Source: Chloroflexota bacterium (GTDB lineage Bacteria > Chloroflexota > Limnocylindria > Limnocylindrales > CSP1-4). Taken from it: a DNA stretch of 64,000 nt. Both the position numbers and the translations under genes were made by a program. Of this stretch, positions 11,775 to 51,744 are shown one piece after another. The notes beneath the pieces are model-generated. The model did no database searches. It saw only the letters and a list, made by a program, of their open reading frames with translations, and was not told where the DNA came from. The stretch covers positions 109,032 through 173,031 of the forward strand of contig VBEC01000019.1 in assembly GCA_005883615.1 (NCBI GenBank), written 5' to 3'. Within the stretch, counting starts at the first letter, position 1, and every line of letters starts with the position of its first letter.

Positions 11775-11786
11775 ATTGTCGACAAT
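11775..11786. promoter_or_regulatory. Perfect palindrome ATTGTCGACAAT, candidate operator (site 1)
   Basis: Read directly: ...ctgtacATTGTCGACAATgcgcgg..., between the divergent genes starting at 11728 (-) and 11875 (+). Confidence 0.65.
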
Positions 11787-11874
11787 GCGCGGCCCCTCGG
11801 AGGACAAGGTTTCGCACGAGGGACGATGAACGAGGTCCGGCCACGAGGGCCCCCAGTTCCTCAGGAGGAGCACC

Positions 11875-13530
11875 ATGCGGATGCACCGATCGATCGTTGG
11901 CGCCGCCGTTGCGGTCCTGATCGTCGGCGCTTGCCAGGGAGCAAGCAGCCCCGCCGCCTCGCCCTCCTCAAGCGCCGCCGCGAGCGCGTCGGCGGGCGGA
12001 TCTCCGGCTGGCTCCGCCGGGACGGCAGTGCTGCGGGTGGCGCGCCTGGCCGACGCCTACAACTTCTTTCACCCGGTTGAATTCCAAACCGGCAACCAAT
12101 TCCAGTGGTACAACTGCATCTTCGACACGCTGGTTAAGGTCCAGGACGACTCGAAGACGCTCACGGATGACCTCGCCAAGACCTGGGATGTCTCCCCCGA
12201 CGCTTCGGTCTACACCTTCCACCTCGCAAGCGGCGTGAAATGGCAGGACGGGCAGCCATTCACGGCGGACGACCTGATCTATACCGCGACCTGGGGTGCC
12301 CAGAACTACGACGCCTACAAGGGCTTCCTGCCGGTGTGGAACCAGCTGAAAGGGGCGGCCGGCGTGCTCCATACGTCGAAGCCGCTTCCAGGGCTCAAGA
12401 AGATCGACGACTCGACCGTCGAGATGACTCTCGAGGCGCCGAACTCACTCTTCCTCGTGCAGTTGACCGACGCGGCCAACGTGATCGTGCCGCAGCACCT
12501 CTTGAAAGACGTCACCGCGGCCAACGTCGAAAAGGTCGACTTCACCCTCGGCAAGCCCGGTGCCACGATCGGAACCGGCCCGTACAAACTGACTGCCTTC
12601 ACGCCGGACCAGTCCCTGGAGCTGACCGCGAACCCCGATTACTTCAAGGGAGCTCCGAAGATCCCGAAGATCATCTTCAAGATCTTCGCCGACCCATCGC
12701 TGGCCGTCGCGCAGCTGGAAAGTGGTGACCTCGACCTTGCGTTCCGCGTGCCGCCCAGCGAGTTCGATCGCCTGTCGGCCCTCCCTAACCTGAACGTCCT
12801 CTCGGCGGCCAACCCGGGCATCGTCCGGATCGTGTTCCGGACCGAAGAAGCCCCGTGGAGCGACAAACGCGTCCGCCAGGCCTTCTACTACGCGATCAAC
12901 CGCCAAGGCATTGTCGACCAGTACTACAAGGGCCGGGCGAAGGTGCTCATCAACCCTCCCGGCTTCAAGGAGTACGACGACCTGAACAAGTACGCCTTCA
13001 ACGTCGACAAGGCCAAGCAGCTCTTGTCCGATGCCGGTTACAGCGGCCAGACGTTCAAGCTGATGTACGACCAGACCTTCCCCGATGCCGCACAGGTCAT
13101 GCCGCTGATCCAGGCTGACCTCCAGAATGCGGGAATCAAGGTCGAACTGGTCCCATTGGATACGGCGACCTACGGCAAGAACTATGGATCCCGCCAGGGA
13201 TGGGACGGCTTCATCGCCGTCGGCGGCAGTGAGGCCCTTACCCCGAACAAGTCGGAGCAGTACTTCCCCAAGGACGGCAAGCATGAGTCGGGCTACACGA
13301 ACCCGCGGATATACGAGCTCTGGGCGGCCGCACGGAGCACCCCTGACGCCGCCAAGCAGGACGAGTCCTACCACGAGCTTGCGAAGATCCTGAACGAGGA
13401 CGTCCCGCAGGTGAACCTCTATTCACCGAACCTCGTTATGGTCTCGACCAAGCGGCTCGATGGCGGCTTCAAAGTCCACCTGAACGAGCGCGAGACATTC
13501 ATGAACGTGGAGACTTGGACGCTCCAGTAA
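11875..13530 (+). CDS. Peptide/oligopeptide ABC transporter substrate-binding lipoprotein (SBP family 5)
   Basis: MRMHRSIVGAAVAVLIVGAC lipobox; GTGPYKLTAFTPDQSLELTANPDYF; KRVRQAFYYAINRQGIV. Confidence 0.93.
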   Translation: MRMHRSIVGAAVAVLIVGACQGASSPAASPSSSAAASASAGGSPAGSAGTAVLRVARLADAYNFFHPVEFQTGNQFQWYNCIFDTLVKVQDDSKTLTDDLAKTWDVSPDASVYTFHLASGVKWQDGQPFTADDLIYTATWGAQNYDAYKGFLPVWNQLKGAAGVLHTSKPLPGLKKIDDSTVEMTLEAPNSLFLVQLTDAANVIVPQHLLKDVTAANVEKVDFTLGKPGATIGTGPYKLTAFTPDQSLELTANPDYFKGAPKIPKIIFKIFADPSLAVAQLESGDLDLAFRVPPSEFDRLSALPNLNVLSAANPGIVRIVFRTEEAPWSDKRVRQAFYYAINRQGIVDQYYKGRAKVLINPPGFKEYDDLNKYAFNVDKAKQLLSDAGYSGQTFKLMYDQTFPDAAQVMPLIQADLQNAGIKVELVPLDTATYGKNYGSRQGWDGFIAVGGSEALTPNKSEQYFPKDGKHESGYTNPRIYELWAAARSTPDAAKQDESYHELAKILNEDVPQVNLYSPNLVMVSTKRLDGGFKVHLNERETFMNVETWTLQ

Positions 13531-13597
13531 CGGTCCGACCTGTCGCGAAGAGGCGCCCAGCGAGTTCACCCGCGGGCGCCGCAGTCTCCGGAGGCCC

Positions 13598-14569
13598 GTG
13601 GGCGCCTATTTTCTGCGCCGCATCCTGATCGCCTTCGTGGTCTTGTTCGGGATCACCCTCATCGCCTATACCGTGCTCTCTCTTGCCCCCGGCGATCCAG
13701 TTTTGGCGCGCCTCGACCCAGAGCAGCTGTCGCGAATGACGAGCGCGCAGGTCGATCAGCGGCGGCACGAGCTCGGGCTGGACCAGCCGATTCCGATCCG
13801 CTACTACCACTGGCTCGCCGACGTCGTGCAGGGCAACCTCGGCTTTTCCATCGTCAGCGGTCGGCCGATCGCCGAGGAGATGGGGCCGCGGCTGCTGCCC
13901 TCCCTGAGTCTGCTGTCGTTCGCGGTGATCGTCGCACTGGTGGTCGGCTTGCCCCTCGGCATCCTGTCGGCGGTCCACCAGTACGGTCGTTCGGACTATC
14001 TGTTGAGCGCGATCACGATTTTCCTCATCAGCACGCCGACGTTCGTGCTCGGGCTCGTGGCGTTATACGTCTTCGGCGTCACGTTGCGGGTGTTGCCGGT
14101 CGGCGATCTGTACACGTTCGGCAAGGAGCGCGACATTCTCGACCGCCTGGCCCACCTCGCGATGCCGGGGGCGATCCTGGGACTCGTCAATGCCGCGCCG
14201 CTCATGCGGTACACCCGAGCGAGCATGGTTGAGGTGCTCTCGAGCGACTACGTTACGACCGCTCGCGCCAAGGGCCTCGCCGGCCGGGTCGTGCTGGTCC
14301 GGCACGCCTTGCGAAACGCCCTCATCCCGGTCATTACGGTACTGGGTTATCTGGTGCCCGATCTGGTGGCCGGGGCGGTCATCACCGAGACCGTGTTCAA
14401 CTGGCCGGGTCTGGGACAGCTGTCGGTCCACGCGGCCAACGACCGCGATCCGGCGCTGCTGATGGGCGTGATTCTGATCGTCGGCGCGGCCGTTCTGCTC
14501 AGCAGCATCGTCGCCGATTTCGCGTACTCCGTGGTCGACCCCCGGATCCGATACGACCAGGGCAGGTGA
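13598..14569 (+). CDS. ABC transporter permease (DppB/OppB-like)
   Basis: MGAYFLRRILIAFVVLFGITLIAYTVLSLAPGDP...; TTARAKGLAGRVVLVRHALRNALIPVITVLG; FNWPGLGQLSVHAANDRD. Confidence 0.95.
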   Translation: MGAYFLRRILIAFVVLFGITLIAYTVLSLAPGDPVLARLDPEQLSRMTSAQVDQRRHELGLDQPIPIRYYHWLADVVQGNLGFSIVSGRPIAEEMGPRLLPSLSLLSFAVIVALVVGLPLGILSAVHQYGRSDYLLSAITIFLISTPTFVLGLVALYVFGVTLRVLPVGDLYTFGKERDILDRLAHLAMPGAILGLVNAAPLMRYTRASMVEVLSSDYVTTARAKGLAGRVVLVRHALRNALIPVITVLGYLVPDLVAGAVITETVFNWPGLGQLSVHAANDRDPALLMGVILIVGAAVLLSSIVADFAYSVVDPRIRYDQGR

Positions 14570-14572
14570 GAG

Positions 14573-15472
14573 ATGACTTCTGTTGGCGATACGGCCGTCC
14601 AGGTGGCTGTGGCCGAACATGAGAGCCTCACCCGCCAGGCCATCCGGCGGTTCCTGCGCCACCGCCTGGCGATCATCGGCTTGCTGGTGCTGGCCTTCGT
14701 GGCCGCTGTGGCGGTGTTCCTACCGCTGGCGGTGCGCCTGGATCCAACGGCGACCGACTACGGCGCGATTCGCCAGCCACCCGGTCCCGGACACCCGCTC
14801 GGGGCGGACCAGTCTGGCCGGGACGTTTGGGCGCGACTCGTCTACGGCTCCCGCATCTCGCTGTTGGTCGGCTTTGGCGCTGTTGCGCTCTATCTCGCAA
14901 TCGGGACGGCCCTGGGCATGATCGCCGGCTTCCTCGGCGGGTTTGCGGACCAGTTGGTCATGCGCGCGACCGACACCCTGCTCAGCATCCCGATCCTGTT
15001 GCTGATCATCGTGTTCATAGCCGTTGTCGGGCCTGGGCTCACGTCCGTGATCGTCGTGATCGCCCTTCTTGGCTGGCCGCCGACGACCCGCCTCGTCAGG
15101 GCCCAGCTCCTTTCGCTGCGCGAGGCCGAGTTTGTTACCGCCGTGCGCGTGGTCGGAGTCGGCAACCTCGGGATCGTTCTGCGGCACTTGCTGCCCAACA
15201 TTTTTGGCCCGCTCACGGTGGTCGCGACGTTCGGCGTTGCTCAGGCGATCCTGCTCGAGGCGTCCCTTTCGTTCCTTGGCCTCGGCGTGCGGCCTCCGGT
15301 CCCGAGCCTGGGCGAGATGATCAACGCCGCCCGCGCGCCGAGCACGCTGCAGGGCCTCCCGTGGGTCTGGCTTCCTCCGGGGATCGTTATCGCGTTGCTG
15401 GTGTTGGCGGTGAACTTCATTGGCGATGGACTGCGGGACGCTCTCGACCCGCGATCTACGCGGCGTGCTTGA
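14573..15472 (+). CDS. ABC transporter permease (DppC/OppC-like)
   Basis: IRQPPGPGHPLGADQSGRDVWARLVYGSRISLLVG; FVTAVRVVGVGNLGIVLRHLLPNIFGPLTVVAT; NFIGDGLRDALDPR. Confidence 0.95.
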   Translation: MTSVGDTAVQVAVAEHESLTRQAIRRFLRHRLAIIGLLVLAFVAAVAVFLPLAVRLDPTATDYGAIRQPPGPGHPLGADQSGRDVWARLVYGSRISLLVGFGAVALYLAIGTALGMIAGFLGGFADQLVMRATDTLLSIPILLLIIVFIAVVGPGLTSVIVVIALLGWPPTTRLVRAQLLSLREAEFVTAVRVVGVGNLGIVLRHLLPNIFGPLTVVATFGVAQAILLEASLSFLGLGVRPPVPSLGEMINAARAPSTLQGLPWVWLPPGIVIALLVLAVNFIGDGLRDALDPRSTRRA

Positions 15473-15489
15473 GCAGAAGGAGGTCGACC

Positions 15490-15960
15490 ATGTTGCGGGC
15501 GTTCATCTTCGGGCCGGTGGCGGTGACCGTCGGGTACTGGGAGCAGCGCGGCGCCGAGGTCGAAGCTGGCGCTCGGGTCGAGGTTCGACGGGTCGAGTAC
15601 GAGCAGATTCCGGGCGCCCCGGCGGGTGTCGCGGGACTGCGCCTGATGCCGGTGACGCATGGCATCTGGCGGGCCGACCTGTTCACCGGCCCACAGGGCG
15701 CCGTCTACCACTACCACCCCGCCTTTCGCGACGGCGATGTCGGCAGCCGATTCCTCGACGATGGGCTGACCCGCGACCCGGTCGCGTGGACAATCGGAAA
15801 GCTCGCCGACCTGCCCGCGCTGGTGCGGGGCAGCCGAGCGGCCGACGTCGCCGACGGGATCCACCCCGCGGAGGTCGAGCAGGCGCTCCCGCAGATCCGC
15901 GAAGCGATTGAGCAGTCGTTCGCGCCGCTCGAGGCACCCCCACAGGCTGCGCCCGCCTGA
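15490..15960 (+). CDS. Small uncharacterised protein, FGPVAVT/IWRADLF/HYHP family (member 1)
   Basis: 156 aa: MLRAFIFGPVAVTVGYWEQRG...VEVRRVEYE...GIWRADLFTGPQGAVYHYHPAFRDGD...DPVAWTIGKLADLPALVRG.... Supported by a clear paralog at 35680; starts 18 nt after the permease. Confidence 0.8.
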   Translation: MLRAFIFGPVAVTVGYWEQRGAEVEAGARVEVRRVEYEQIPGAPAGVAGLRLMPVTHGIWRADLFTGPQGAVYHYHPAFRDGDVGSRFLDDGLTRDPVAWTIGKLADLPALVRGSRAADVADGIHPAEVEQALPQIREAIEQSFAPLEAPPQAAPA

Positions 15961-15993
15961 CGGGAACCGACGGGTGCCGACGTTGGCAGCCAG

Positions 15994-16020
15994 GAACGAT
16001 GCGCGTCGCGGGCATCGTTC
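15994..16020. repeat. Perfect 9-bp inverted repeat GAACGATGC-N9-GCATCGTTC
   Basis: Read directly in the gap between the small protein (stop 15960) and the MFS gene (start 16102). Confidence 0.6.
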
Positions 16021-16101
16021 GGACTGCGCGCGGCCAGCTCGTCCGCGACCGGGCGCCCGAACCCGTCGACATTGGACGGTCCCGTATCGGGCCCAGCACG
16101 G

Positions 16102-17444
16102 ATGGACTCCGTGAGTCGAGACGGGAGCAGGGCCCAATTGGGCCAGCCCAACTCCGCCCCAGCTCCCGAGGAGCCGGTCGGGGCGGCTTTCAAGAGCTAT
16201 CTCCGCCGGCTGTCAGGGCCCGGTGGCGGCGCAATCGAGCGGCACAACTATCGCGTGGTGCAGCTCGACTCGGTCGCTATGGGTGTCGTCGCAGCGGCAA
16301 CGCCGTTTCTGCCGGTGTTTCTCGCCCGCCTCGGCGGGTCGAACTTCGAGGTGGGCCTCCTGACGACGCTGCCCGCGTTGGGCGGCCTTCTGTTCGCCAT
16401 CCCGTTCGGGCAGCTGATTCAGCGGCGGCGGAACGTCGTGCCCTGGTACAGCCGCTCGCGCCTGATCGCCAACATGGGCTACCTGACGATCGCGGGGGTG
16501 GTCCTCCCGGGAGCTCCGCTGGCGGTCCCGTTGCTCCTTCTCGTGTGGGCCCTGGTGACGATCCCGAGCACCATCGGGCAGGTCAGTTTCTCGGTCGTCA
16601 TGGATGCGGCGGCCAGGCCGCGAAGCCGCTACGACCTGTTGAGCCGGCGATGGGCGATCATGGGCCTCACGACCGCCGTCGCCGTGGCAGTGATCGGCTT
16701 TGGGCTCGAGCGCATCGCCTTCCCGGCCAACTACCAGCTCGCCTTCACCGCTTTCTCGCTGGCGGGCGTCGCGAGCTACCACTACTCACGCCAGATTCGG
16801 GTGGCCGACCACCAGCCGGTCCCAGCCGCCACGGGGCTCGGGGCGCTGCGTCAGACCATCGTCCAGGTGCGGTCTGAGCGGCCATTCGTCCGCTTCGCCC
16901 TGCGCCAGACGGTCTACACAGCGGGGGTGCGGCTGGTGGCCCCGCTGATCCCCCTGTACTACGTCCGCGTCGTTCATGCCTCAGATGCCTGGATCGGAAT
17001 CATCGCCACGGCCCAATCGCTCGCGCTGCTCGTTGGCTACTGGTTCTGGCGAAACCAGTCCCAAGCGCGGGGAGGGCGGTTCGTCCTGTTGTGGTCGCTT
17101 GGCATGGCTGCTCTACAACCGGCGTTGCTGGCCGGCCTCGGCAGCGTCGAGCTCATCGCGATCCTGGCCGGTGCGGCGGCGATCTTCTCGGCAGGGGCCG
17201 ACCTCGCGCTGTTCGACGAGCTCATGAAACGCGTCCCGCATCGCTATGGGATCACCTTTTCGGCCGTCGACTATGCGATCGTCAATGTGGCCGGCATCGG
17301 CGCGCCGTTGGCCGGAGCGCTGCTGGCCGACGCCGTGGGTATCCAGACAGCGCTAATCCTTGGAGCCAGCGTGAGCCTGGTCGCCTTCGGCCTGTTCGCG
17401 GTCGACGCGCGGGGGGCACCTGGCGGCGAAAAAGGCGGCGGTGA
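16102..17444 (+). CDS. Major facilitator superfamily-like permease (core; the in-frame ORF formally stays open to 18135)
   Basis: Multiple hydrophobic segments: VAMGVVAAATPFLPVFLARLGGSNFEVGLLTTLPALGGLLFAIPFGQLIQRRR..., SAVDYAIVNVAGIGAPLAGALLADAVGIQTALILGASVSLVAFGLFAVD. Beyond about 17420 the frame is antisense to the amidohydrolase on the minus strand; the 17444 end assumes a frame change. Confidence 0.6.
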
Positions 17445-17606
17445 TATTTCAGGGCATTGGTCTTCGACCCGCGGTCCAGGCAGGGCCGCCCGACCAGATG
17501 AAGGAAACGTGACCGAGGCGAGCCGATCGTCCAGCCGGACACTCCACAGCGACGGCCCAGTCATGCTCATCCACTCCTACGACGACGGCCTCTCTGCCGG
17601 GACAGG

Positions 17607-18794: not shown

Positions 18795-18961
18795 CCGGTC
18801 GCCCTCCGCTGACCGCCAGGGGAGCCGATCGTCGGCCGCCGGCGTCTGCGGATCGTAGCGCCGCTCGAGACCCCCCGGTCCCTCGGCCCGCTCACACAAC
18901 ACTCCGATCCGTAGACGGTCCGGCTGTGCTGTTCCGCGCCTCGAGGCCTGGCAGCGCCGGG

Positions 18962-20263
18962 TCAGGTATAGGTGGCTCGGCCACCCTCGCTCACGAGCTC
19001 GCCCCGGTCGACCAGGCGCGCAACCTCCGCCAGGTCCGCCAGGTAGCGATCCACGTATGGTTCGTGGCCCGGTGACTGCATGAAGCGGATCGCGGGGACC
19101 GGGTAGCTGTCGCGGAACACGTGCCAGCCACGAGCCTCGAGCCCATCGGCGATCGCGAAGATGTCGAGCCTCGTCGAAGTGAAGCCAAACACCGACATGT
19201 GGGGCCGGCCCATGACCTCGAGGCCGGGGATCGCGTTGATCCCGTCCCAGAAGCGATGCAGGTAACGCATGGTCCGGTCGACCAGGCGCACGTAACCATC
19301 GTTGCCGAGGTACATCAGCACTGCCCACGCCGCGGCGATTGCTCCGCCGGGCCGCGTCCCGGTCATGCTCGGGGTGACATACCAGTCGTCCGGTCGCTCC
19401 GGACCGCCGAATCGGAACACCTGGTGCCTGAAGATGTCGGGGTCGCGCGAGATGATCGTGGAGGCACCTTTGGCCGCGTAGCCAAACTTGTGGAGGTCGG
19501 CCGAGATGGTGGTCACGCCCGGGACCCTGAAATCGAAGCATGGGACCGGATAGCCAAGCTGCTCCGCGAAGGGCAGGAAGTAGCCACCGACGCAGGCGTC
19601 GACATGGAAGCTGATCGCCCGCTCTTCCGCCAGCGGTGCCAGCTCCTCGATCGGATCGACCATGCCAAGCGTCAGGCTCGGCGCCGAGCCGACCAGCAGC
19701 ACCGCGTTCCGGGTCATGGCGCGGCGATACGCATCGACGTCGACCTGCAGGTCTTCGCCGAGCGGCACCCGGACCGGCTTGAGCCCGAAGTAATGGGCCG
19801 CCTTCCAGAACGCCGGATGGGCGGATTCGGGCAGGACCATCTCGGGTTCGGAGACGTCCGGGTGAAGCTCTCGCCCCCGATCACGTGCACTCTTGACGCC
19901 CATGAGGATGCTCTCGGAGCCGCCCGACGTGATGCTCCCGACGGCCCGATCGCCATGCAGGATCCCTGCGGTCATCGAGATGACGTCGTGCTCGAACCGG
20001 GCCAGGCTGGGGAAGATCGACGGGAGAAGCCCGTTGGTCGAAAAGAAGGAGAGATAGGCGTCGGAGGCCACCTCGAGCACGTCGTCGCCGGCCGGATATT
20101 GGACTCCCGCGGCCATTGCCGGCACCGGCTCGAGGTCGCCTCGGGCGGCGCGCCGCAGCTCCTCGCGGATCGTCTCGCGCGACAGCCCCTGCTGCGGAAG
20201 GCGGACGTCTTGCGTCGAGGTGGCGTTCACGTCGTCTCCCTGGGCGCCAGCCTCAGAGCACAT
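18962..20263 (-). CDS. PLP-dependent decarboxylase/lyase (group II decarboxylase / sphingosine-1-phosphate-lyase-like)
   Basis: GSITSGGSESILMGVKSARDRGRE, HVDACVGGYFLPFAEQLGY, ISADLHKFGYAAKGASTII. Alternative GTG start at 20230. Confidence 0.85.
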   Translation of the reverse strand: MCSEAGAQGDDVNATSTQDVRLPQQGLSRETIREELRRAARGDLEPVPAMAAGVQYPAGDDVLEVASDAYLSFFSTNGLLPSIFPSLARFEHDVISMTAGILHGDRAVGSITSGGSESILMGVKSARDRGRELHPDVSEPEMVLPESAHPAFWKAAHYFGLKPVRVPLGEDLQVDVDAYRRAMTRNAVLLVGSAPSLTLGMVDPIEELAPLAEERAISFHVDACVGGYFLPFAEQLGYPVPCFDFRVPGVTTISADLHKFGYAAKGASTIISRDPDIFRHQVFRFGGPERPDDWYVTPSMTGTRPGGAIAAAWAVLMYLGNDGYVRLVDRTMRYLHRFWDGINAIPGLEVMGRPHMSVFGFTSTRLDIFAIADGLEARGWHVFRDSYPVPAIRFMQSPGHEPYVDRYLADLAEVARLVDRGELVSEGGRATYT

Positions 20264-20289
20264 TGACAGTCCGCCCGGCCGGCTCCCAC

Positions 20290-20301
20290 ATTGTCGACAA
20301 T
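20290..20301. promoter_or_regulatory. Perfect palindrome ATTGTCGACAAT, candidate operator (site 2)
   Basis: Read directly: ...gctcccacATTGTCGACAATccgccgg..., between the divergent PLP decarboxylase and CocE genes. Confidence 0.65.
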
Positions 20302-20335
20302 CCGCCGGACAGGTCAACCGGAGACAGGAGGGCCG

Positions 20336-22357
20336 ATGGGCATCCGCGACGAGCCGCTCCGGCGCATCCGCGAGATCGAGAACGCGGTGATTCCGCTTCC
20401 CGACGGCGGTCATCTCGCCGCGCGGATCTGGCTTCCGGCAGACGCCGAGAGCTCACCCGTGCCTGCGCTGCTGGAGTACCTGCCTTACCGCAAGCGGGAC
20501 GGCACAGCCGTGCGCGACGAGCCGAATCACCGCTACCTGGCCGGCCATGGCTACGCCTGTCTCCGCGTCGACCTCCGCGGTACAGGCGAGTCAGACGGCC
20601 TGTTGCGCGACGAGTATCTCGCCCAGGAGCTGGAGGACGCCGACGCCGCGTTTGCATGGATCGCCGCCCAACGCTGGTGCACTGGTGGCGTCGGCATGTT
20701 CGGCAACTCATGGGGCGGCTTCAATGCGTTGATGGTGGCGGCGCGCCGCCCGCCCGCGCTCAAAGCCATCATCACGTCCTGCTCGACCGACGACCGGTAT
20801 GCCGACGACATGCACTACGCGGGCGGCTGCCTGCTGACGGACATGTTCGACTGGGGGGCCGCCTTCCTGACGTTCCTGGCTCGGCCGCCCGATCCGGTTC
20901 TGGTCGGCGACGGCTGGCGTGAGACATGGTTCGAGCGACTCGAAGGCCTGCACAACCCCGTCGAAGATTGGCTGCGACATCCGTGGCGGGACGAGTTCTG
21001 GCGGCATGGCTCCGTGTGCGAGAACTACGACGCCATCGGATGCCCCGTTTTCGCGGTCGGAGGATGGCTCGACGGCTACTCGAACGCCGTGCCGCGGCTG
21101 CTTGCGGGCCTGTCCGTTCCCAGGCTCGGGCTGGTCGGCCCCTGGGCGCACGCCTACCCGCATCTCGGCGTGCCGGGGCCTGCGTTCGATTTCCTCGGCG
21201 AGTCGGTCCGATGGTGGGACCACTGGCTCAAGGGGATCGAGACCGGGATCATGGACGAGCCGATGTATCGGGCGTGGATGCCTGACGGCCTGCCGGCGAT
21301 GCCGTTCTACGAAACGACCGAGGGGCGCTGGGTCGCCGAACGAAGCTGGCCGTCGCCTCGCCTGCGACGGCGACGACTGTGGCTGACCGACGGCCGTCTC
21401 GAGGCTGAGCCCCGGAGCGCTGGCCCCGTGCAGTGGGCCTCGCCGCAGCTCACCGGCGCAGCGAGCGGAGAATGGTGCCCGTTCGGGACCGCCGGACGAG
21501 GGCCCGAATTCCCTGGAGATCAGCGCGAAGACGATGACCGCTCGCTCGTCTTCGACGCCGCACCGCTCGAAGAACGTCTCGAAATCTTCGGCGCCCCGAT
21601 CGCCCATCTCGTGGCGTCCGTCGACCGGCCGTCGGCGCGCCTGGCGGTCCGACTGTGCGACGTGGCACCCGACGGAACATCGACACGCGTGACGTACGGG
21701 GTGCTCGACGTCAGCCATCGCTCCGGCCACGAACGCCCCGAGGCGATCACCCCGGGTGCGCCGATAACCTTCGAGCTCCGGTTGAACGACGTCGCATACG
21801 CGTTCCTGCCGGGGCACCGACTCCGGCTTGCCCTATCGACCACGTACTGGCCGATGGTCTGGCCCTCGCCGGAGGCGGTCACCCTGACCCTCCTGCCCGG
21901 GGGAACGCTGGAGCTGCCGGTCCGGCCGCCCTCGTCCGACGACGAAGGCCTCGTGGTTCCGGGACCGGCCAAAGCCGGTCCGCCGGCGGCCACAACGCCG
22001 CTCCAGCCCGGGCTCTGGGAACGGACGGTCGACCTGGACGCGATGGCGGGTCGCGTGACGATCAGCAACGTCGCGGACGCCGGCCTCACTCGCCTTGATG
22101 CGATTGGCATGACCATCGGCTCGCGGGCCGAGGACCGCTACATGATCCGCGAGGGCGACCCACTTTCGGCCCGCTGTGAGTCGCGACGGACCGTGCGCAT
22201 GGAGCGACCAGGCTGGCAGATCCGCCTCGAGGTCAGCCTTGCTGCCTCGTCGACCGGACAGGCATACCGGCTGATGTCGGATCTCGAGGCGTTCGAGAAC
22301 GGCGAATCGGTATTCCGCCGCGGCTGGGACGCGGAAATCGCTCGCGACCGTGCATGA
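20336..22357 (+). CDS. CocE/NonD (X-Pro dipeptidyl-peptidase type) alpha/beta hydrolase
   Basis: LLEYLPYRKRDGTAVRDEPNHRYLAGHGYACLRVDLRGTGESDGL; nucleophile elbow GMFGNSWGGFNAL; C-terminal jelly-roll region with LVASVDRPSARLAVRLCDVAPDGTSTRVTYGVLD. Confidence 0.9.
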   Translation: MGIRDEPLRRIREIENAVIPLPDGGHLAARIWLPADAESSPVPALLEYLPYRKRDGTAVRDEPNHRYLAGHGYACLRVDLRGTGESDGLLRDEYLAQELEDADAAFAWIAAQRWCTGGVGMFGNSWGGFNALMVAARRPPALKAIITSCSTDDRYADDMHYAGGCLLTDMFDWGAAFLTFLARPPDPVLVGDGWRETWFERLEGLHNPVEDWLRHPWRDEFWRHGSVCENYDAIGCPVFAVGGWLDGYSNAVPRLLAGLSVPRLGLVGPWAHAYPHLGVPGPAFDFLGESVRWWDHWLKGIETGIMDEPMYRAWMPDGLPAMPFYETTEGRWVAERSWPSPRLRRRRLWLTDGRLEAEPRSAGPVQWASPQLTGAASGEWCPFGTAGRGPEFPGDQREDDDRSLVFDAAPLEERLEIFGAPIAHLVASVDRPSARLAVRLCDVAPDGTSTRVTYGVLDVSHRSGHERPEAITPGAPITFELRLNDVAYAFLPGHRLRLALSTTYWPMVWPSPEAVTLTLLPGGTLELPVRPPSSDDEGLVVPGPAKAGPPAATTPLQPGLWERTVDLDAMAGRVTISNVADAGLTRLDAIGMTIGSRAEDRYMIREGDPLSARCESRRTVRMERPGWQIRLEVSLAASSTGQAYRLMSDLEAFENGESVFRRGWDAEIARDRA

Positions 22358-22367
22358 GCGGTTCCCG

Positions 22368-23951: not shown

Positions 23952-23986
23952 CGGCTCGGGGTCGGATTCACAAGGAGGCCGTGACC

Positions 23987-24772: not shown

Positions 24773-24778
24773 GGCGAG

Positions 24779-29994: not shown

Positions 29995-30954
29995 GTGAAG
30001 GTCGGGCTGATCCTGCCCCAGGGCTATTTCAACGAATACGACGGGTGGGATCCCGAGAAGGCCTGGGGGCGGACGCTCGAGCTGGCCATGCTCGCCGAGC
30101 GGCTGGGGTTCGAGTCCCTCTGGTTCGGCGAGCACGTACTCCCCAAATGGAACACTACGGGCATTGCGTTCGACTGCGTGGCGCTTGCCGCCGCCGTGGC
30201 AGCGGCCGTCCCGCGAGTTGGGATCGGCTTCGTGGTCATCAACTCCACGTTCCGGAACCCCGCTCTGACGGCCAAAGTCGCCGGCACGCTCGACGTGATC
30301 AGTGGAGGTCGACTGACGCTCGGCCTCGGAGCCGGATTCCGGCAGATCGAGGCCGACGCCTTCGGGTTCGACTACCCGGCCCTCGCGACCCGTCTGGCCA
30401 TGCTTGCCGAGCATCTCGAGATCATCGGGCGGCTGCTCGTGCCCGGCGGCCCGCCGGTCACCTTCGAGGGTCACTACGCGCGAGTCAGGGAGGTGACCAA
30501 CAACCCGGCCGGAGTCCAGCGGCCGCGGATCCCGATCCTGATCGGCGGACATGGACCCAACGTCACGTTCCGGCTGGCGGCGCGGTACGCCGACGAGCTG
30601 AACCTCGACCTGCTGCCGGTTGACATCCCGACCGCCCTTGAGACGCTGTGGGACCGATTCCGGGAGGTCGACCGCGATCCGGGGACCCTCAGGCTCTCGG
30701 CGGGCATCAATCCGAGCATGCCCTATCACGGCCTCCGCTCGACGGGCGGCCAGCGAATCATGGAACCCGGCGAGTTCGCGTTCATGGCGCCGGAGAAGTT
30801 CGCAACGTTGGGCACTCGCGTCGAGGAGCTGGTCCAATGGCGTGAGCTGGGCTTCAGCAGGCTGATGGCCGGCGTGCCCGGGCTAGCCAACACGGACGAG
30901 ACGCTCTACGAGTTCGTCGAGGACTGCCATGCCGCCGGCGTGGAACTGGGCTGA
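29995..30954 (+). CDS. LLM-class (luciferase-like) flavin-dependent oxidoreductase
   Basis: MKVGLILPQGYFNEYDGWDPEKAWGRTLELAMLAERLGFESLWFGEHVLP; SGGRLTLGLGAGFRQIEADAFG. Confidence 0.9.
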   Translation: MKVGLILPQGYFNEYDGWDPEKAWGRTLELAMLAERLGFESLWFGEHVLPKWNTTGIAFDCVALAAAVAAAVPRVGIGFVVINSTFRNPALTAKVAGTLDVISGGRLTLGLGAGFRQIEADAFGFDYPALATRLAMLAEHLEIIGRLLVPGGPPVTFEGHYARVREVTNNPAGVQRPRIPILIGGHGPNVTFRLAARYADELNLDLLPVDIPTALETLWDRFREVDRDPGTLRLSAGINPSMPYHGLRSTGGQRIMEPGEFAFMAPEKFATLGTRVEELVQWRELGFSRLMAGVPGLANTDETLYEFVEDCHAAGVELG

Positions 30955-37418: not shown

Positions 37419-37421
37419 AGG

Positions 37422-41506: not shown

Positions 41507-41597
41507 GCGGTGCGGGTTGGTCCTGGGCAAGCCGGGCAGCTGAATGATGCAGGCGTTCACGGATCGCCTTCGCTCACAGGACTAGAGGGCGGGCCCA

Positions 41598-42575: not shown

Positions 42576-42600
42576 CGTTACGTTCGTTCGAGGTCGAGGC

Positions 42601-43551: not shown

Positions 43552-43580
43552 CGGGTTTCGGCGTTGCGCGATCGGCGCCG

Positions 43581-44048: not shown

Positions 44049-44079
44049 TTCCTCGACGGCCCAATCCCACGCTCGACGA

Positions 44080-45186
44080 ATGATCGACCTGCGCTCCGAC
44101 ACGGTGACCCAGCCCTCGCAAGAGATGCGGCGAGCGATGGCAGCGGCGGACGTCGGCGACGACGTCTTCGGCGAAGACCCGACGGTCAACGCCCTGGAGC
44201 AGCGTGCGGCGACGCTGCTCGGCAAGGACGCCGGCTTGTTCGTCGTTTCCGGGACGATGGGCAACCTGGTCTCGATGCTGGCGCATCTCGGGCGGGGCTT
44301 TGAGCTCATCGCAGGAGCGGGAACGCACGTCGTCGACGGGGAGGCCGGCGGCCATGCGGTCGTCGTGGGCGCCTCGGCGCGAGCCATTCGGGTGGGACCC
44401 GACGGCACGATCGATCCAGCTGCCATCGACCGCGCCTTCCGGGATCCGAGCGACGTCCACGAGCCAGTCACAGGCCTCGTGGTTCTCGAGAACACGCACA
44501 ACCTGACGATGGGACAGCCGTTGACGCCGAGCTACACGGCCGAGGTCGCTGCAATCGCTCACCTCCGCGGAGTGCCGCTCCACGTCGACGGTGCCCGCCT
44601 GTTCAACGCCGCGGTAGCCCTCGGCGTCCCGGCCCGTGACCTTTGCGATCCGGCTGATTCGGTGACGTTCTGCCTTTCCAAAAGCCTCGCCTGCCCGGTC
44701 GGCTCGGTCGTCGTCGGCACGCGTGAGTTCATCGCCACGGCGCGCCGCGCCCGCAAGCTGGTCGGCGGCGGAATGCGCCAGGCCGGGATCCTTGCCGCGG
44801 CCGGGCTCGTTGCGCTCCAGCCCGGGCCGGGAGGGATGATCGCGCGGCTCGCCGACGACCACGCCAACGCCCGGCGGTTGGCCCAGGGCCTGGCAGGGCT
44901 GCCGGGAGTGATCGAGCTCGAGCCCCACCGCGTCCGCACCAACTTCGTGATCTTCGGCCTGGCCGGCCGTGAGAGCAGAGGCGCCTCGGTCACCTCCCGG
45001 GCGGCCTTCCTGGCGGGCCTCGCCACACGCGGCATACAGATGATCGAGTATCCGAACGGCTTGGTTCGCGCAGTGACCCACTACGGAGTTTCCGAGGTGG
45101 ATATCGACACCGTGCTCACCGCCGCGCGCGAGGTTCTCTCCGAATTGCGACCCCGCTCGGTCATGTCCGCGGCCGCCACCAGCTGA
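44080..45186 (+). CDS. ltaE: Low-specificity L-threonine aldolase
   Basis: MIDLRSDTVTQPSQEMRRAMAAADVGDDVFGEDPTVNALEQRAATLLGKDAGLFVVSGTMGNLVSMLAH; VPLHVDGARLFNAAVALG; CLSKSLACPVGSVVVG. Confidence 0.93.
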   Translation: MIDLRSDTVTQPSQEMRRAMAAADVGDDVFGEDPTVNALEQRAATLLGKDAGLFVVSGTMGNLVSMLAHLGRGFELIAGAGTHVVDGEAGGHAVVVGASARAIRVGPDGTIDPAAIDRAFRDPSDVHEPVTGLVVLENTHNLTMGQPLTPSYTAEVAAIAHLRGVPLHVDGARLFNAAVALGVPARDLCDPADSVTFCLSKSLACPVGSVVVGTREFIATARRARKLVGGGMRQAGILAAAGLVALQPGPGGMIARLADDHANARRLAQGLAGLPGVIELEPHRVRTNFVIFGLAGRESRGASVTSRAAFLAGLATRGIQMIEYPNGLVRAVTHYGVSEVDIDTVLTAAREVLSELRPRSVMSAAATS

Positions 45187-45297
45187 CCGGACGGCAGCAG
45201 CATCCCGTCTGGACCAACTCGATGGGGGCATCGGGTATGAGCTGCGGTCGGTGCCCGCTCTGGCTGGGTTCTGTCAGCCCGTCCGTGCCACCTCGCG

Positions 45298-46392
45298 TCA
45301 GTCCGGCCAGGTGAATGCGACGCTCAGCCAGCCCTCGCCGCCGGCTGCCAGGACGTCGTACATCGCAGGCGCCTCGGTATACGGTACGACGTGGGTGATC
45401 AGCGGGCGGACGTCAAGCTCTCCGCGCCGGATGAGGTCGATCACCGTCGAGTGGTTGCGCGACCGGGTCCACGGCCAATACGGGTGACTCAACCCGAATC
45501 CGGTCTCGTACGAGCCCACGAGGGAGATCTCTCTTCGCAGCAGTATGTCGAGGCTGATTGGGACAGTCGGACCGGGATCCGGCCAGGCCGCAGTCGCCCC
45601 GGCAACGACAATCCGGCCGCGGTCGGCCGCCGCTCGCAGCATCTCGGGCACGACGTCGATGCGCGAAGTCGCGTGAATCTGAACGTCCGCACCGGACGTC
45701 GGCTCGAGTCTCGCAGCCGCTGCACCGGGAAAGCGTCGCGTCACCGGGGTCGCGGCGTGGATCGAGGCCGCGACGTCGCCTGACAGCGGATTGACGGCGT
45801 GAGTCGCGCCGAAGACTCGAGACACGCGCAGCCGATCCTCGACGACGTCGACACCAATCAGCGGATGGGCGCCACTCAGCCGCGCCAGCCGTAACGCGAT
45901 CAAGCCGACGACTCCCTGCCCGTGCACGGCCACCGACTCGCCAATCGCGATCCTGGCTCGACGAACGGCATGTAGGGCCACGTCGCCGAGGATGGCGAAA
46001 GCGGCGGAGACATCGTCGACGTCGTCGGGCAGTGCCATGAGCCCCAGCTCCGACGCCTGCTCGTCCATCGATCCCGGGTCGGGCAGCATCGCCAGCCAAT
46101 GGCTGGCATGCGGGCCCTCGCCGAGGACGCGGGCACCCGGTTCGACCTCCGATACGTTCCGCCCGACCGCCTCGACTACGCCCACGGACGTGTATCCAAG
46201 CGGCAGGTCGTCGGGCTCTCCGAGCGGCGCTCCCGAACGTCGAGCGCGAATCGCATTGACCTCGGTGCCGGCGCTGACCTGGGTCAGCCGGTTCCGCACG
46301 AGAACCTGGCGCGGGCCGGGCGGCGGCGTATCGAACGGTTCGATCCGAATCCCACCTGCCGGCTCAAGGACGATTCGGTGTCCGGCGGTCAT
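45298..46392 (-). CDS. Zinc-binding alcohol dehydrogenase-like MDR oxidoreductase
   Basis: PPPGPRQVLVRNRLTQVSAGTEVNAIRAR...LPLGYTSVGVVEAVGRNVSEVEPGARV...VAVHGQGVVGLIALRLARLSGAHPLIGVD. Confidence 0.88.
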   Translation of the reverse strand: MTAGHRIVLEPAGGIRIEPFDTPPPGPRQVLVRNRLTQVSAGTEVNAIRARRSGAPLGEPDDLPLGYTSVGVVEAVGRNVSEVEPGARVLGEGPHASHWLAMLPDPGSMDEQASELGLMALPDDVDDVSAAFAILGDVALHAVRRARIAIGESVAVHGQGVVGLIALRLARLSGAHPLIGVDVVEDRLRVSRVFGATHAVNPLSGDVAASIHAATPVTRRFPGAAAARLEPTSGADVQIHATSRIDVVPEMLRAAADRGRIVVAGATAAWPDPGPTVPISLDILLRREISLVGSYETGFGLSHPYWPWTRSRNHSTVIDLIRRGELDVRPLITHVVPYTEAPAMYDVLAAGGEGWLSVAFTWPD

Positions 46393-46552
46393 GCGGGTGT
46401 CACTGTCGACGGTGTGGGCGGCCGTGGTCGTGGTAGGGATTTCGTCGGCGTCACCGGCGCGTTAGTCTCCCCAGCATGGACGGGAGTGCACCCGTCCGAC
46501 AGGCGTTACGGCCATCGTTGAAGCGGCGCAGGGTCACTGGGAGGATCGATCC

Positions 46553-47650
46553 ATGCTGGAGGTGCTGGCGAGCGGGCTCGTGTATCGCAATCCAAGACCC
46601 GAGCTGCGGCCGGTCCACACGTGGCATCCGACGATCGTCCGGTTCGAGGATGGGGAGCTGCTCTGCACCTTCGACCTGGCTTCGGCCGACGTGGCCCTCG
46701 ACTACCGGACGTACGCGAGCCGCTCGCTCGATGACGGCACCACGTGGACCAGCCCCGTGCGGGTGCTTGCTGATTCCGGCAACAGAGCCAGTGTCCATAG
46801 CGTTCGCATCAGCCGGGTATCCGACGGATCCGTGGTCGCCTTCGGCGGTCGGATGTTTCGAGACGACCCCGACCGGGGCCTGATCAACGTGCCCACCTTG
46901 GGATACACGGAGATGGAGCTGATCACGCTCAGGAGCCGAGATCGTGGACGTTCGTGGGAGGGCCCGGTACGCATCGACCCCCCGTTGGTCGGCCCCGCCT
47001 TCGAGATCTGCCATGCGATCGTCGAGCTTCGAGACGGGCGGTGGTTGGGGCCAACCTCGACCTGGATGGGCTGGGATGGGGCGGCCCCGAATGGCATGAA
47101 CGCCATCCTGCTGGTTTCGCACGACCAGGGTTCCTCGTGGCCCGAGTACATCGTCGAATTCGACCGCTGGGCCGAGCATGTCCTTCACTGGGAACAGTCC
47201 GTGGTCCAGCTGCGGGACGGGCGCCTTCTTGCCGTCGCATGGGCGGTGAGTCTCGACACCAACCGGGCCGAGCCGACGCCCTACGCCCTGAGCGAAGATG
47301 GCCGCGAGTTCACGGTTCGCGGATTCACCGGGTTCAGAGGACAGACGACCAAGATCATCGAGCTCCCAGACGGCAGGATTTTCAGTGCCTACCGACGCGA
47401 CGACGTCCCAGGGTTGTGGGCTACCGTCGCGCGCCTCGACGGCGACCGCTGGGTCAACCAGGAGACGATCCCGCTGTGGCAGGGAGCGTCGTCGGGGATG
47501 AGCGGAACGGCCGATCCTGGTCATGAGCTGCTCCAGCTCAAATTCGGCTTTCCACAAATGGTCGTCATGCCCGACGGGCAATTGTTCCTGGTCTTCTGGT
47601 GCGAAGAGGATTGCATCAAGAACATCAGGTGGCTGCGGATCGCCGTATGA
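46553..47650 (+). CDS. Sialidase-like / BNR (Asp-box) repeat protein
   Basis: MLEVLASGLVYRNPRPELRPVHTWHPTIVRFEDGELLCTFDLASAD; Asp-box-like motifs SLDDGTTWTS, SRDRGRSWEG, SHDQGSSWPE. Confidence 0.82.
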   Translation: MLEVLASGLVYRNPRPELRPVHTWHPTIVRFEDGELLCTFDLASADVALDYRTYASRSLDDGTTWTSPVRVLADSGNRASVHSVRISRVSDGSVVAFGGRMFRDDPDRGLINVPTLGYTEMELITLRSRDRGRSWEGPVRIDPPLVGPAFEICHAIVELRDGRWLGPTSTWMGWDGAAPNGMNAILLVSHDQGSSWPEYIVEFDRWAEHVLHWEQSVVQLRDGRLLAVAWAVSLDTNRAEPTPYALSEDGREFTVRGFTGFRGQTTKIIELPDGRIFSAYRRDDVPGLWATVARLDGDRWVNQETIPLWQGASSGMSGTADPGHELLQLKFGFPQMVVMPDGQLFLVFWCEEDCIKNIRWLRIAV

Positions 47651-47699
47651 CCGATGCCTCGCCCATCCCCAGGCCCGGGACTGCCGTGAGTGGCGGGGC

Positions 47700-50018
47700 T
47701 CACATGGGTTCCGGGCGGTTTCGCGACGACGTCCACAGCCGCGCTGCCTGAATGGGCAGCTCTCGAGGCCGCACCCCGGCCGCCGCGGCTACTGCGTTTG
47801 CGATCGCTGCGGGAGCGGCAACCACGGAGGCCTCGCCGATTCCCTTCGCGCCGAACGGTCCGTCCGGCGCAGGAACCTCGACGATGATCGTCTCGATCGG
47901 CGGCAGACTGCTCGCTCTGGGAATTGCGTAATCCAGGAACGTGCCGCTCAGGAGCTGCCCTTGCTCGTCGTGGATCAGCTTCTCGTACAGCGCCCAGCCG
48001 ATGCCCTGCACCGTTCCACCAAGCATCTGGCCTTCGATCAGCGCGGGGTTCAGCGCTCGTCCTACGTCCTGTGCAACGACATTGCGCAGGATCTCGACTC
48101 GCCCGGTATCGTGATCGAAGCGAGCGTGAACGAGGTGCGCCGCGGACGAGGGAGCGAGGCTCTTCGGGACCGTGCGACCGTGGCCCTCGACCGGTGGATG
48201 GTGGCCACCGAAGTCGTGCAACTTCTCAGCCAGGGCGGCCAGCGACATGCCTCGGTCGGGGGAGCCACGCGGTCGGACAATGCCGTCAACGATCTCCAGG
48301 TCGGCCGGCGCGATCTCGAATTCCAGGGCTGCGAAGTCGAGGAGCTGCTGTCGTGCGTCGGCGGCCGCAGCCTGGATAGCTCGACCGGATGAGTACGTGA
48401 CGACGCTCCCGCCACTCAGCGGCGATTGCGGAGCCCCGTCGGTATCGAGGCTGACCACCTTGACCTGGTCGGGGGCCACGCCGAAGGCCTCGGCGGCGAT
48501 CACGCCAAAGCCGCTGACGGCACCCGACATATCCACGACGCCGGTGATGACGGCCAGCGTACCGTCCGGTTCGAGCCGGCAGATGGCGGCGGCCGGCTCC
48601 TTGCCTCCGGGCCAATAACCGACGGCCAGGCCGATGCCCTCACCGGGCGGGACCTTCTGGCGGCCGGTCCAGAGGGGATGCGCACGGACGGCCTCGAGGC
48701 ACTCCCTCGCGCCAATCCCCGGCCAGGCTTCTCCATCGATCATCGGCGAACCCGCCTCGGCGAGATTGGCCAGTCGCAGCTCGACAGGGTCGAGACCCAG
48801 ACGCTCGCCCAGCTCGTCGATCAATGACTCGAGCGCGAACGCCGCCTGTGGGGCGCCCGGCGCCCGATACGAGCCAGTCCCGAAGCGATTGGTGCGCACG
48901 CCGTAAGCGCGGACGTCGAACGCGGGCCAGGCATAGGGACCGGCAACGATGACCGCGGCGATCGCCTCGATCGTCCATTCGGTATAGGCCCCTGCGTCGA
49001 ATGCCAATCGGGCGTCGATGGCCACCAGCTCACCCGATCGCTTGGCGCCGATCTTGATCTCGATGACGCTGGCTGAGGCCGGGTTCGTCGCCGCGAAGTC
49101 CTCCCGACGGGTCAGGGCGAGCCTGACCGGGCGGTGCAGCGCCAGCACGGCCCCAGCGACCAGCGGCTCGACCACGATCACCTTGGATCCGAATGCACCC
49201 CCGAGCGGCGCACCCAGCACGCGTACCTGGCTCGCCGGAAGACCGAAGATCTTGGCCAGCTGCTGCCGGCAGTAGAACGTGCCCTGGGTGCTCGTCTCGA
49301 CGACGAGCGTCCCGTCGGGTTCCAGCCAGCCCGAGGCCGCGTGGGGCTCCATGTAAGCCTGGTACACCCAGTTCGTCCGGAACGTCCCCTCTGCGACCAC
49401 GTCGCTTTGCGCCAGGGCGGACGTAACGTCTCCTTGCGCGTACCGCTTCCTGCTGATCACGTTCTCGGAAAGGTCTTCCTCTTCGAGCAGCGCTCCGACT
49501 CCACCCACGGCCGCGTGGGCCGCCTTGGCGGCCCCGGCATCGTCATCCTCGACTTCGACCAGCGGCTTGATCCGCGCCGGCGGAGCACCGGCGTCCATGG
49601 CTGCGTGCAGGTCGAGGACGGGATCCAGTCGCTCGGCGTCGACCGTGACCAGGTCGACGGCGTCCGAAGCTGCGGCCTCGCTTTCGGCGATGACAAGGGC
49701 GACTGGTTGTCCAGCAAAAACGACCTCCCCCCTGGCCAATGGCTCGAACATGCGCATGTCTCCGCGACCTGTGATCGGAAGATCCTCCGCGGTCAGTACC
49801 GCCACGACACCGGGTACGGCCAGGGCGGCGGTGGCGTCGACCGCGCGGATGCGAGCATGGGCGTACAGGCTCGGCACGACGCGAGCGTGCAGGAGGCCCT
49901 TCCGCGAGCGGTCGGCCGCGTACCTGGTGGCGCCTGTCACCTTCTCGAGCGAGTCGATCCGGGGCCGGCGGACACCGATCCCTCCCTCTCCTCCCGGGGT
50001 GGGGGGCACCGCGGTCAC
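47700..50018 (-). CDS. Xanthine dehydrogenase-family molybdopterin-binding (large) subunit
   Basis: GIGVRRPRIDSLEKVTGATRYAADRSRKGLLHARVVPSLYAHARI; GGAFGSK; SYRAPGAPQAAFALESLIDELGERLGLDPVELRLAN; AKGIGEASVVAAPAAIANAVAAAAG. GTG at 50018 overlaps the upstream stop by 4 bp. Confidence 0.92.
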   Translation of the reverse strand: MTAVPPTPGGEGGIGVRRPRIDSLEKVTGATRYAADRSRKGLLHARVVPSLYAHARIRAVDATAALAVPGVVAVLTAEDLPITGRGDMRMFEPLARGEVVFAGQPVALVIAESEAAASDAVDLVTVDAERLDPVLDLHAAMDAGAPPARIKPLVEVEDDDAGAAKAAHAAVGGVGALLEEEDLSENVISRKRYAQGDVTSALAQSDVVAEGTFRTNWVYQAYMEPHAASGWLEPDGTLVVETSTQGTFYCRQQLAKIFGLPASQVRVLGAPLGGAFGSKVIVVEPLVAGAVLALHRPVRLALTRREDFAATNPASASVIEIKIGAKRSGELVAIDARLAFDAGAYTEWTIEAIAAVIVAGPYAWPAFDVRAYGVRTNRFGTGSYRAPGAPQAAFALESLIDELGERLGLDPVELRLANLAEAGSPMIDGEAWPGIGARECLEAVRAHPLWTGRQKVPPGEGIGLAVGYWPGGKEPAAAICRLEPDGTLAVITGVVDMSGAVSGFGVIAAEAFGVAPDQVKVVSLDTDGAPQSPLSGGSVVTYSSGRAIQAAAADARQQLLDFAALEFEIAPADLEIVDGIVRPRGSPDRGMSLAALAEKLHDFGGHHPPVEGHGRTVPKSLAPSSAAHLVHARFDHDTGRVEILRNVVAQDVGRALNPALIEGQMLGGTVQGIGWALYEKLIHDEQGQLLSGTFLDYAIPRASSLPPIETIIVEVPAPDGPFGAKGIGEASVVAAPAAIANAVAAAAGVRPRELPIQAARLWTSSRNRPEPM

Positions 50019-50857
50019 CCAGCCACTCCGCTCGGCTCGGTCGCCGCCGGCTTCAGGGTCGCGTCCGCCACCCACGAATCCACGACCGACCGGAGCTCGG
50101 TGGCGCTGCGCTTGAGAAACTCATGAAGAATGTTCAGGTCACTGCCGATGCAGAAGTGGCGGACACCCAGGTCGAGGTAGTAGCCCGCCTCGGACGGCAG
50201 CGTCAGCTCCGCTCTTGCCGGGATTCCCGCACGGTGACTGGCATCGATGACCCGCCGCTCGACAGCTCGAATCTCTGGGTCGATCCAGCCGCCGGGACGA
50301 CCGACGCTCATCGCGTAGTCGGCGGGACCCCATTGGATCATGTCGATGCCGGGCACTGACAGGATCTCGTCGAGCTGCTCGACCGCCGACCGCTTCTCGA
50401 TCATGAGGACCACGACGACATCTTGCAGCGCCTGCACGTACGATGCGGTGGCAGCCTGCCCGTAATAGCTCATCCGCCTGTCAGCCGCTCCATATGTTCC
50501 TCCTCCATCCGGGGAATCGGGGCGCACGGCCATCACGCATTCAAGCGCATCGTCCCTGTTGCGGACGTCCGCGAATAGGACAGACTGGAATCCCGAGCCG
50601 ATCGCCCGCTGAGCCAGGAAACGGCGAGGCTCCTGGTCGAGCTTGATCATCGCGCCGAGATCGAACAGCTCAGCGGCGCGGCAGAAGTTGTCGAGCCCGA
50701 AGAGGTCGAACGGCGCGTACTCCGCGGAGAACTCAACATAGTCGAAGACGCCCGTATGTCCGACGATCTCGACGACCGATGGCCACGTGTTGTGCAGGTG
50801 CGTGGCGAATGATGGCCGGCCGGCGGCAAGGAGCTCTCGCAGTCGATTCGGGCGCAT
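50015..50857 (-). CDS. HpcH/HpaI aldolase/citrate lyase family protein
   Basis: MRPNRLRELLAAGRPSFATHLHNTWPSVVEIVGHTGVFDYVEFSAEY; VVVLMIEKRSAVEQLDEILSVPGIDMIQWGPADYAMSVG. Confidence 0.88.
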   Translation of the reverse strand: MRPNRLRELLAAGRPSFATHLHNTWPSVVEIVGHTGVFDYVEFSAEYAPFDLFGLDNFCRAAELFDLGAMIKLDQEPRRFLAQRAIGSGFQSVLFADVRNRDDALECVMAVRPDSPDGGGTYGAADRRMSYYGQAATASYVQALQDVVVVLMIEKRSAVEQLDEILSVPGIDMIQWGPADYAMSVGRPGGWIDPEIRAVERRVIDASHRAGIPARAELTLPSEAGYYLDLGVRHFCIGSDLNILHEFLKRSATELRSVVDSWVADATLKPAATEPSGVAG

Positions 50858-50860
50858 GCG

Positions 50861-51667
50861 TCAGACGGCGGCGGCCTCGACCGCGGGGCGGTCGAGGAGA
50901 CCTCTTGCGGCTGCCAGCTCAGCCCGGCCGCCCAGTTGCAGCAACGCGAGATCCGAGGCGACGGTCAACATCCGGAAGCCCTGCTCGAGATACCGTCGGG
51001 CGATCGTCCCGTTGGCGCAATGAATTCCGGGTATCACGTTGTGTCGCTGACACGATTCACGGACCTGGTCGATTGCCGTCTCATGAATGCGCGCCTGCGA
51101 TTCGCGCCAGTCGTCGGGATCCCAGGACAACCCAAGCGAGACCGCCAGGTCCGCGGGGCCGACATAGATCGCGTCCACGCCGGCCGTTGCGGCGATCTCG
51201 TCGACGTTGCGCAGTCCCTCTGCAGTCTCCACCATCACGATGACAGCGATCTGCTCGAAATCGGCCTGGGCTCCCGCGGCCCGCATGATCGGCCCCCGAA
51301 GCGGGCCCGCTGACCGGTGACCCCCCGGGGCGTACCTGACGGCGTCAACGGCGCGGGCCGCCTGCTCGGTCGTCTCGACCATCGGCACGATCACACCAAG
51401 GGCACCGAGATCGAGCGACTTGCCGATCAGCGCGGGATCGTTCGAGGGCACTCGCGTCGTCGGCACGGCGCCCTGGAGCTCGATCGCCCGAAACGCCGCG
51501 GCAAGACTGGCGGGGTCGCCCAGGCCGTGCTGCTGGTCGACACACACCTCGTCGAAACCGCAACTCGCCAGGAACTCGGCTACCTGGGGATCCGCGGTCG
51601 TCATCCAGGCTCCGAGCGATGCCGTGCCGCGAGCCCAGCGCTGCAGCAAGGGGTTGCCGAATCCCAC
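50861..51667 (-). CDS. HpcH/HpaI aldolase/citrate lyase family protein
   Basis: FLASCGFDEVCVDQQHGLGDPASLAAAFRAIELQGAVPTTRVPSNDPALIGKSLDLGALGVIVPMVETTEQAARAV; VMVETAEGLRNVDEIAATAGVDAIYVGPADLAVSLG. GTG start preceded by an AGGAGG-like RBS. Confidence 0.92.
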   Translation of the reverse strand: MGFGNPLLQRWARGTASLGAWMTTADPQVAEFLASCGFDEVCVDQQHGLGDPASLAAAFRAIELQGAVPTTRVPSNDPALIGKSLDLGALGVIVPMVETTEQAARAVDAVRYAPGGHRSAGPLRGPIMRAAGAQADFEQIAVIVMVETAEGLRNVDEIAATAGVDAIYVGPADLAVSLGLSWDPDDWRESQARIHETAIDQVRESCQRHNVIPGIHCANGTIARRYLEQGFRMLTVASDLALLQLGGRAELAAARGLLDRPAVEAAAV

Positions 51668-51732
51668 CGACTCCTCCTGTCGAGCGCCAGTCGACCCGAG
51701 GTTCCACCCCAAGGCCTCGGACACCCGCGCAG

Positions 51733-51744
51733 ATTGTCGACAAT
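51733..51744. promoter_or_regulatory. Perfect palindrome ATTGTCGACAAT, candidate operator (site 3)
   Basis: Read directly: ...cccgcgcagATTGTCGACAATgtgaag..., between the divergent aldolase gene (start 51667) and the XRE-cupin gene (51893). Confidence 0.65.

Follow-up and report, generated by a model that had tools for sequence, protein, structure and literature searches.

The palindrome ATTGTCGACAAT, found three times in the 64,000-nucleotide stretch of Chloroflexota DNA analysed here (the window; G000:C54:109032-173031, part of a 3.06-Mb draft genome), very probably marks the operators of one GntR/FadR-subfamily (FCD) repressor, g80, whose predicted gene is located on the same contig, C54. 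A preliminary description of this DNA had reported three exact copies and no others, each placed between divergent genes, and had proposed that one regulator co-controls the three loci. A search of the window returned exactly three copies, all of them intergenic and flanked by divergent genes (g100/g101, g106/g107 and g131/g132):

11775..11786 (C54:120806): operator 1, ATTGTCGACAAT, between g100 (minus strand) and g101 (plus strand); exact, intergenic
20290..20301 (C54:129321): operator 2, ATTGTCGACAAT, between a pyridoxal phosphate (PLP) decarboxylase gene (minus strand) and a CocE-type hydrolase gene (plus strand); exact, intergenic, matrix match
51733..51744 (C54:160764): operator 3, ATTGTCGACAAT, upstream of an aldolase-aldolase-XDH operon; exact, intergenic, matrix match

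From base composition, 0.0004 exact copies would be expected in the window, in agreement with the earlier estimate of far below one. When up to two mismatches were allowed, the window contained five matches as compared to 1.0 expected, a number that none of 100 dinucleotide shuffles attained. Distances to the minus-strand start codons were 46 bp from operator 1 to the ATG of g100, 59 bp from operator 2 to the GTG of g106 at 20230 (26 bp with the ATG at 20263) and 65 bp from operator 3 to the GTG of g131, each within one base of the value first given (about 47, 60 and 66). We favour the GTG start at 20230 for g106, since it leaves room for a promoter.

Exact and one-mismatch copies were searched for genome-wide, while a matrix scan covered C54 and stretches of two related genomes, G031 and G100; C54 was assembled, and its genes were called by a codon-usage script. 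The contig contains runs of N at 30025-30147 and 44422-44468. The genome carries six exact copies of the palindrome as compared to 0.019 expected from base composition, and 0 copies of a reversed control pattern. All six are confined to C54 (65626, 82791, 99706, 120806, 129321 and 160764) and fall within a span of 95 kb, together with a seventh copy with one mismatch at 97214. These seven copies are all intergenic and stand 4 to 143 bp before at least one start codon, with the regions around 65626 and 82791 not being divergent. The preliminary description had held that many intragenic copies genome-wide would speak against a regulon; all six exact copies turned out to lie in promoters and none was intragenic. 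Two other one-mismatch copies exist in the genome, on C33 and C68, the latter within an open frame whose translation would be IIVDNLEL. In the matrix scan, every match scoring at least 19 was a promoter site (operator 1, at 29.9, falls within this class), the next two, at 13.4 and 11.1, were also intergenic, and the rest scored 9.4 or below. The matrix was trained on these very sites, and the informative part of this result is the score gap together with the lack of high-scoring coding matches. Outside the palindrome the flanks have few weakly conserved positions in common, with GTAG...CTAC being favoured, and the wider operator context is a weaker 20-bp GTAGATTGTCGACAATCTAC around ATTGTCGACAAT. 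Hence, the interpretation of the three loci as a regulon is supported, but the regulon is larger than had been proposed, comprising at least seven sites across some 95 kb. At C54:69139, 70313 and 77133, catabolic genes are preceded by weaker intergenic sites that carry two mismatches.

The candidate regulator, g80, is a GntR/FCD protein encoded at C54:94285-95013, roughly midway along the cluster of sites. It comprises an N-terminal GntR winged helix (PF00392; 55.6 bits, cut-off 27) and a C-terminal FCD domain (PF07729; 81.3 bits, cut-off 24.3), and its residues D139, H143, H194 and H216, which are invariant in three orthologs, would fit the metal sites described for FCD domains (PMC7674646). 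In a survey of 107 genomes of the family, the palindrome was present in three only, namely G000 (6 copies), G031 (9) and G100 (2), and the same three were the only ones with a close full-length g80 ortholog (49-53% identity), other family homologs reaching at most 104 bits; this coincidence has a chance probability of 1 in 198,485 if the genomes were independent. Moreover, the regulator's own promoter carries ATTGTCGACAAT in G031 and ATTGTCGACGAT in G100. The tracking of the palindrome by a GntR/FCD regulator from genome to genome, together with these self-promoter copies in relatives, bears out the initial suggestion of a FadR-subfamily regulator, and the GT-CG-AC core agrees with the operator form of that subfamily (TKGT/ACMA boxes, GT-N(2-3)-AC). 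The single regulator would most likely be g80, the gene of which lies outside the window, some 14 kb ahead of its first position. The genome contains three FCD-domain matches: g80, one on contig C70 and a fragment within the window:

859..1140, minus strand: g93, FCD remnant without the helix-turn-helix half, beside the gamma-glutamyltransferase gene g94

This remnant is 60% identical to the G100 regulator over 48 residues, and in G031 an intact regulator with its operator adjoins the g94 ortholog; g93 is probably a decayed original copy of the regulator, with g80 being the surviving one.

Conservation, which the preliminary description had named as a check, was found in both relatives, where sites recur before orthologous genes. 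Nine exact sites and one with a single mismatch are present in G031, all at promoters of a similar gene set, and G100 carries two exact and two one-mismatch sites, again at promoters of a similar gene set; at one of the G100 sites, the overlap with a called start is probably due to that start having been placed too early. Sites are kept in G031 at the promoters of g84/g85 (C246:5145), g131 (C105:5945, 33 bp upstream of the ortholog), g71 (C246:20069) and g83 (C17:1482, together with the regulator), and a site is also found at the g129 ortholog (C105:29480). The g67 ortholog has an exact site (C105:583), the C54 counterpart of which, at 77133, is weak. Operator and g84 are separated by 266 bp in C54 (99440-99705), the gap of the G031 ortholog being 27 bp; perhaps the g84 start was called too short, or the leader is long. 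In a sister family, f2, the 12-mer falls within a coding sequence whose frames read (E)(A)IVDN (L018-L023, several f2 genomes), and these copies were rejected as operators. No g80 homolog was found in f2, and its coding copies represent a coding coincidence that is serviceable as a negative control.

The position of the palindrome relative to promoter elements points to repression. The operator flanks build a -10 hexamer (TAGATT or TACATT), and a TTGAC -35 box is located 17-18 bp upstream of the -10 at 9 of 21 sites, as compared to 1.0% of random intergenic positions. The window contains one such candidate:

20263..20292, plus strand: candidate sigma-70 promoter toward the CocE gene, with -35 TTGACA at 20263-20268, an 18-bp spacer and -10 CACATT at 20287-20292

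This promoter was called by consensus match only, and its -10 element overlaps operator 2. The simplest interpretation is repression by occlusion: a g80 dimer bound to the palindrome would mask the -10 element, along with the bases on its downstream side, and would thereby block RNA polymerase at seven or more promoters of the ~95-kb catabolic island. A substrate or intermediate of the island would then enter the metal-containing FCD pocket, causing g80 to release the DNA, and every unit, the three within the window among them, would turn on at the same time. We are less sure of repression at every site than of the operator assignment itself, and we infer both binding by g80 and repression over activation. 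With still less assurance, the ligand class is most likely a sugar acid or a related hydroxy or keto acid.

Several observations weigh against g80 as the common repressor. Its own promoter in the window's genome (C54:94210-94330; L011:14210-14330) contains no self-operator, which may have been lost or may never have been present. A clear TTGAC -35 box is lacking at operators 1 and 3. In G031, the ortholog of g100 is not preceded by a site, so that conservation of operator 1 is unsupported, the G031 contig ends at the operator 2 region, and both G031 and G100 are draft genomes. Lastly, C70 encodes a second full FCD regulator that is about 35% identical to g80.

An alternative that we consider improbable, yet the one that survives best, is that g80 activates, or that it represses some promoters and activates others. 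Some GntR/FCD proteins are activators, CitO among them (PMC4746285), and several sites, operators 1 and 3 included, have no -35 box at the proper distance. At the readable promoters, however, the palindrome overlaps the -10 element, which is a repressor position, and PrpR of Pseudomonas aeruginosa, which has the same operator, is a repressor. Binding of the palindromes by another regulator seems to us only half as probable as that; the binder would be either the XRE-cupin protein g132, which adjoins operator 3 and which the preliminary description had named for a binding test, or the C70 protein, with its FCD domain. The distribution of the XRE-cupin protein differs from that of the palindrome: an ortholog of 68% identity occurs in G013, which has no palindrome, whereas G100 has the palindrome and just a 42% identical homolog on another contig, and in G031 no site adjoins the g132 ortholog, all of which disfavours g132. 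As for the C70 protein, the 6.1-kb C70 stretch contains no ATTGTNNACAAT-like site within two mismatches. Finally, that the repeats reflect chance, a coding signal or the end of a mobile element is hardly credible, even though f2 carries the 12-mer inside (E)(A)IVDN coding frames, because six genomic copies stand against 0.02 expected, all of them are intergenic, sharing beyond the palindrome is limited to a few weak flank positions, and orthologous promoters conserve the sites, which contradicts any of these origins.

At the three operators the following genes are found:

9188..11728, minus strand: g100, thiamine diphosphate (ThDP)-dependent E1/transketolase-like protein, 846 amino acids (Pfam Transketolase_N, PDH_E1_M)
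11875..13530, plus strand: g101, SBP_bac_5 solute-binding protein, at the head of an oligopeptide-type ATP-binding cassette (ABC) operon
13598..15472, plus strand: g102-g103, ABC permeases (BPD_transp_1)
18962..20230, minus strand: g106, PLP-dependent decarboxylase, GTG start at 20230 (alternative ATG at 20263)
20336..22357, plus strand: g107, CocE/S15-type alpha/beta hydrolase
47700..51667, minus strand: g131-g130-g129, one operon of two HpcH/HpaI-type aldolases and an XDH-like molybdopterin subunit
51920..52531, plus strand: g132, XRE-cupin regulator, reading away from operator 3, with its start at a distance of 175 bp

The g131-g130-g129 operon is located downstream of operator 3. The island as a whole encodes several enolase-superfamily (MR_MLE) proteins, GFO/IDH/MocA oxidoreductases, 2-hydroxyacid dehydrogenases and a flavin mononucleotide-dependent hydroxyacid dehydrogenase, as well as aldolases, an aldehyde dehydrogenase, amidohydrolases, BNR-repeat proteins and ABC transporters. 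No NCBIfam model scored above its cut-off for g80 or for the island enzymes tried: for g100 the aceE and transketolase models, and for the aldolase g131 the best ones (HpaI/GarL), remained below their cut-offs. The 2-methylcitrate cycle genes prpB and prpC were absent from the scanned site-adjacent genes, the rest of the genome not having been searched for them.

A profile search with an alignment of the three orthologs returned 80 named loci, while the same contig search with g80 alone gave no match. At 27 of the regulator loci examined, two of which are duplicates of the G031 and G100 genes, a CG-centred palindrome with no more than one mismatch was found near the regulator's own start; the taxa with such a self-operator are Streptomyces, Microbacterium, Jiangella, Phytoactinopolyspora and Nocardioidaceae, in addition to Chloroflexota. 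In a maximum-likelihood tree, the three Chloroflexota orthologs formed a clade (100/99) nested in a 38-row clade (98/86), and the latter contained all 25 regulators with a CG-centred self-operator, the actinobacterial ones included. Most actinobacterial loci examined have an MR_MLE gene nearby, usually divergent from the operator; the three MR_MLE proteins tested matched galactonate dehydratase best, below the cut-off. In Streptomyces (L116) and Microbacterium (L102), genes for 2-keto-3-deoxy-6-phosphogluconate (KDPG)-aldolase-like and 2-keto-3-deoxygluconate (KDG)-kinase-like proteins follow the MR_MLE gene. These MR_MLE, aldolase and kinase neighbours suggest that the ligand is a sugar acid or a product of its breakdown. 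The GntR/FCD regulators of Streptomyces, Microbacterium and Jiangella thus belong to the same clade as g80 and have the self-operator and the MR_MLE type of neighbour; the actinobacterial loci that we read are small divergons of few genes, whereas the C54 sites are dispersed over a 95-kb island.

Here, a regulator, its operator and its target set were assigned from sequence alone, with internal controls, in genomes known only as metagenome assemblies. The assignment predicts the operator for a whole cross-phylum clade of uncharacterised regulators and delimits the genes of a 95-kb island that probably act on a common substrate. More speculatively, and with well under even confidence, one FCD repressor of this little-studied Chloroflexota group might coordinate a scavenging programme of unusual size and dispersion, with seven or more promoters over about 95 kb, joining acid-sugar degradation, the uptake and breakdown of peptides and amides, and an unusual E1/transketolase-like enzyme, possibly in an undescribed pathway for one compound class.

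Among known systems, the closest sequence to g80 in the PDB is 7xp0 (E = 5e-21), which we take to be the PrpR protein; the recognition helices of the two are nearly identical (SRGPLREAI in g80 against SRGPVREAI). P. aeruginosa PrpR (PA0797) is a GntR/FCD repressor of the 2-methylcitrate cycle with the reported motif ATTGTCGACAAT, and an electrophoretic mobility shift assay showed that it binds upstream of its own gene (PMC9765439). PrpR and g80 therefore have the domain type and the identical 12-mer in common, but PrpR has a site before its own gene whereas g80 in the window's genome has no self-operator, and the PrpR regulon is the prp operon whereas the g80 set consists of acid-sugar-like, peptide and amide genes. 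DgoR, the repressor of D-galactonate metabolism, binds galactonate via a divalent metal (PMC7674646), and this protein and other FadR-subfamily aldonate regulators have an FCD domain with metal-site residues in common with g80. Most FadR-subfamily sites, including that of DgoR, have three nucleotides between GT and AC, in contrast to the two of ATTGTCGACAAT; according to the source of the FadR-subfamily consensus, the 2-nucleotide spacing is a minority class that includes PrpR, UxuR and HypR (PMC4494728). A literature search with the 10-mer TTGTCGACAA gave no GntR operator among the matches listed, whereas the 12-mer led to PrpR. Since the identical 12-mer was already reported for PrpR, the operator is not new; the novelty lies in the regulon, in the regulator assigned to it and in the clade. 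The comparison suggests that an identical operator serves two metabolic programmes, that of 2-methylcitrate in Pseudomonas and that of sugar-acid-like genes in the window's genome.

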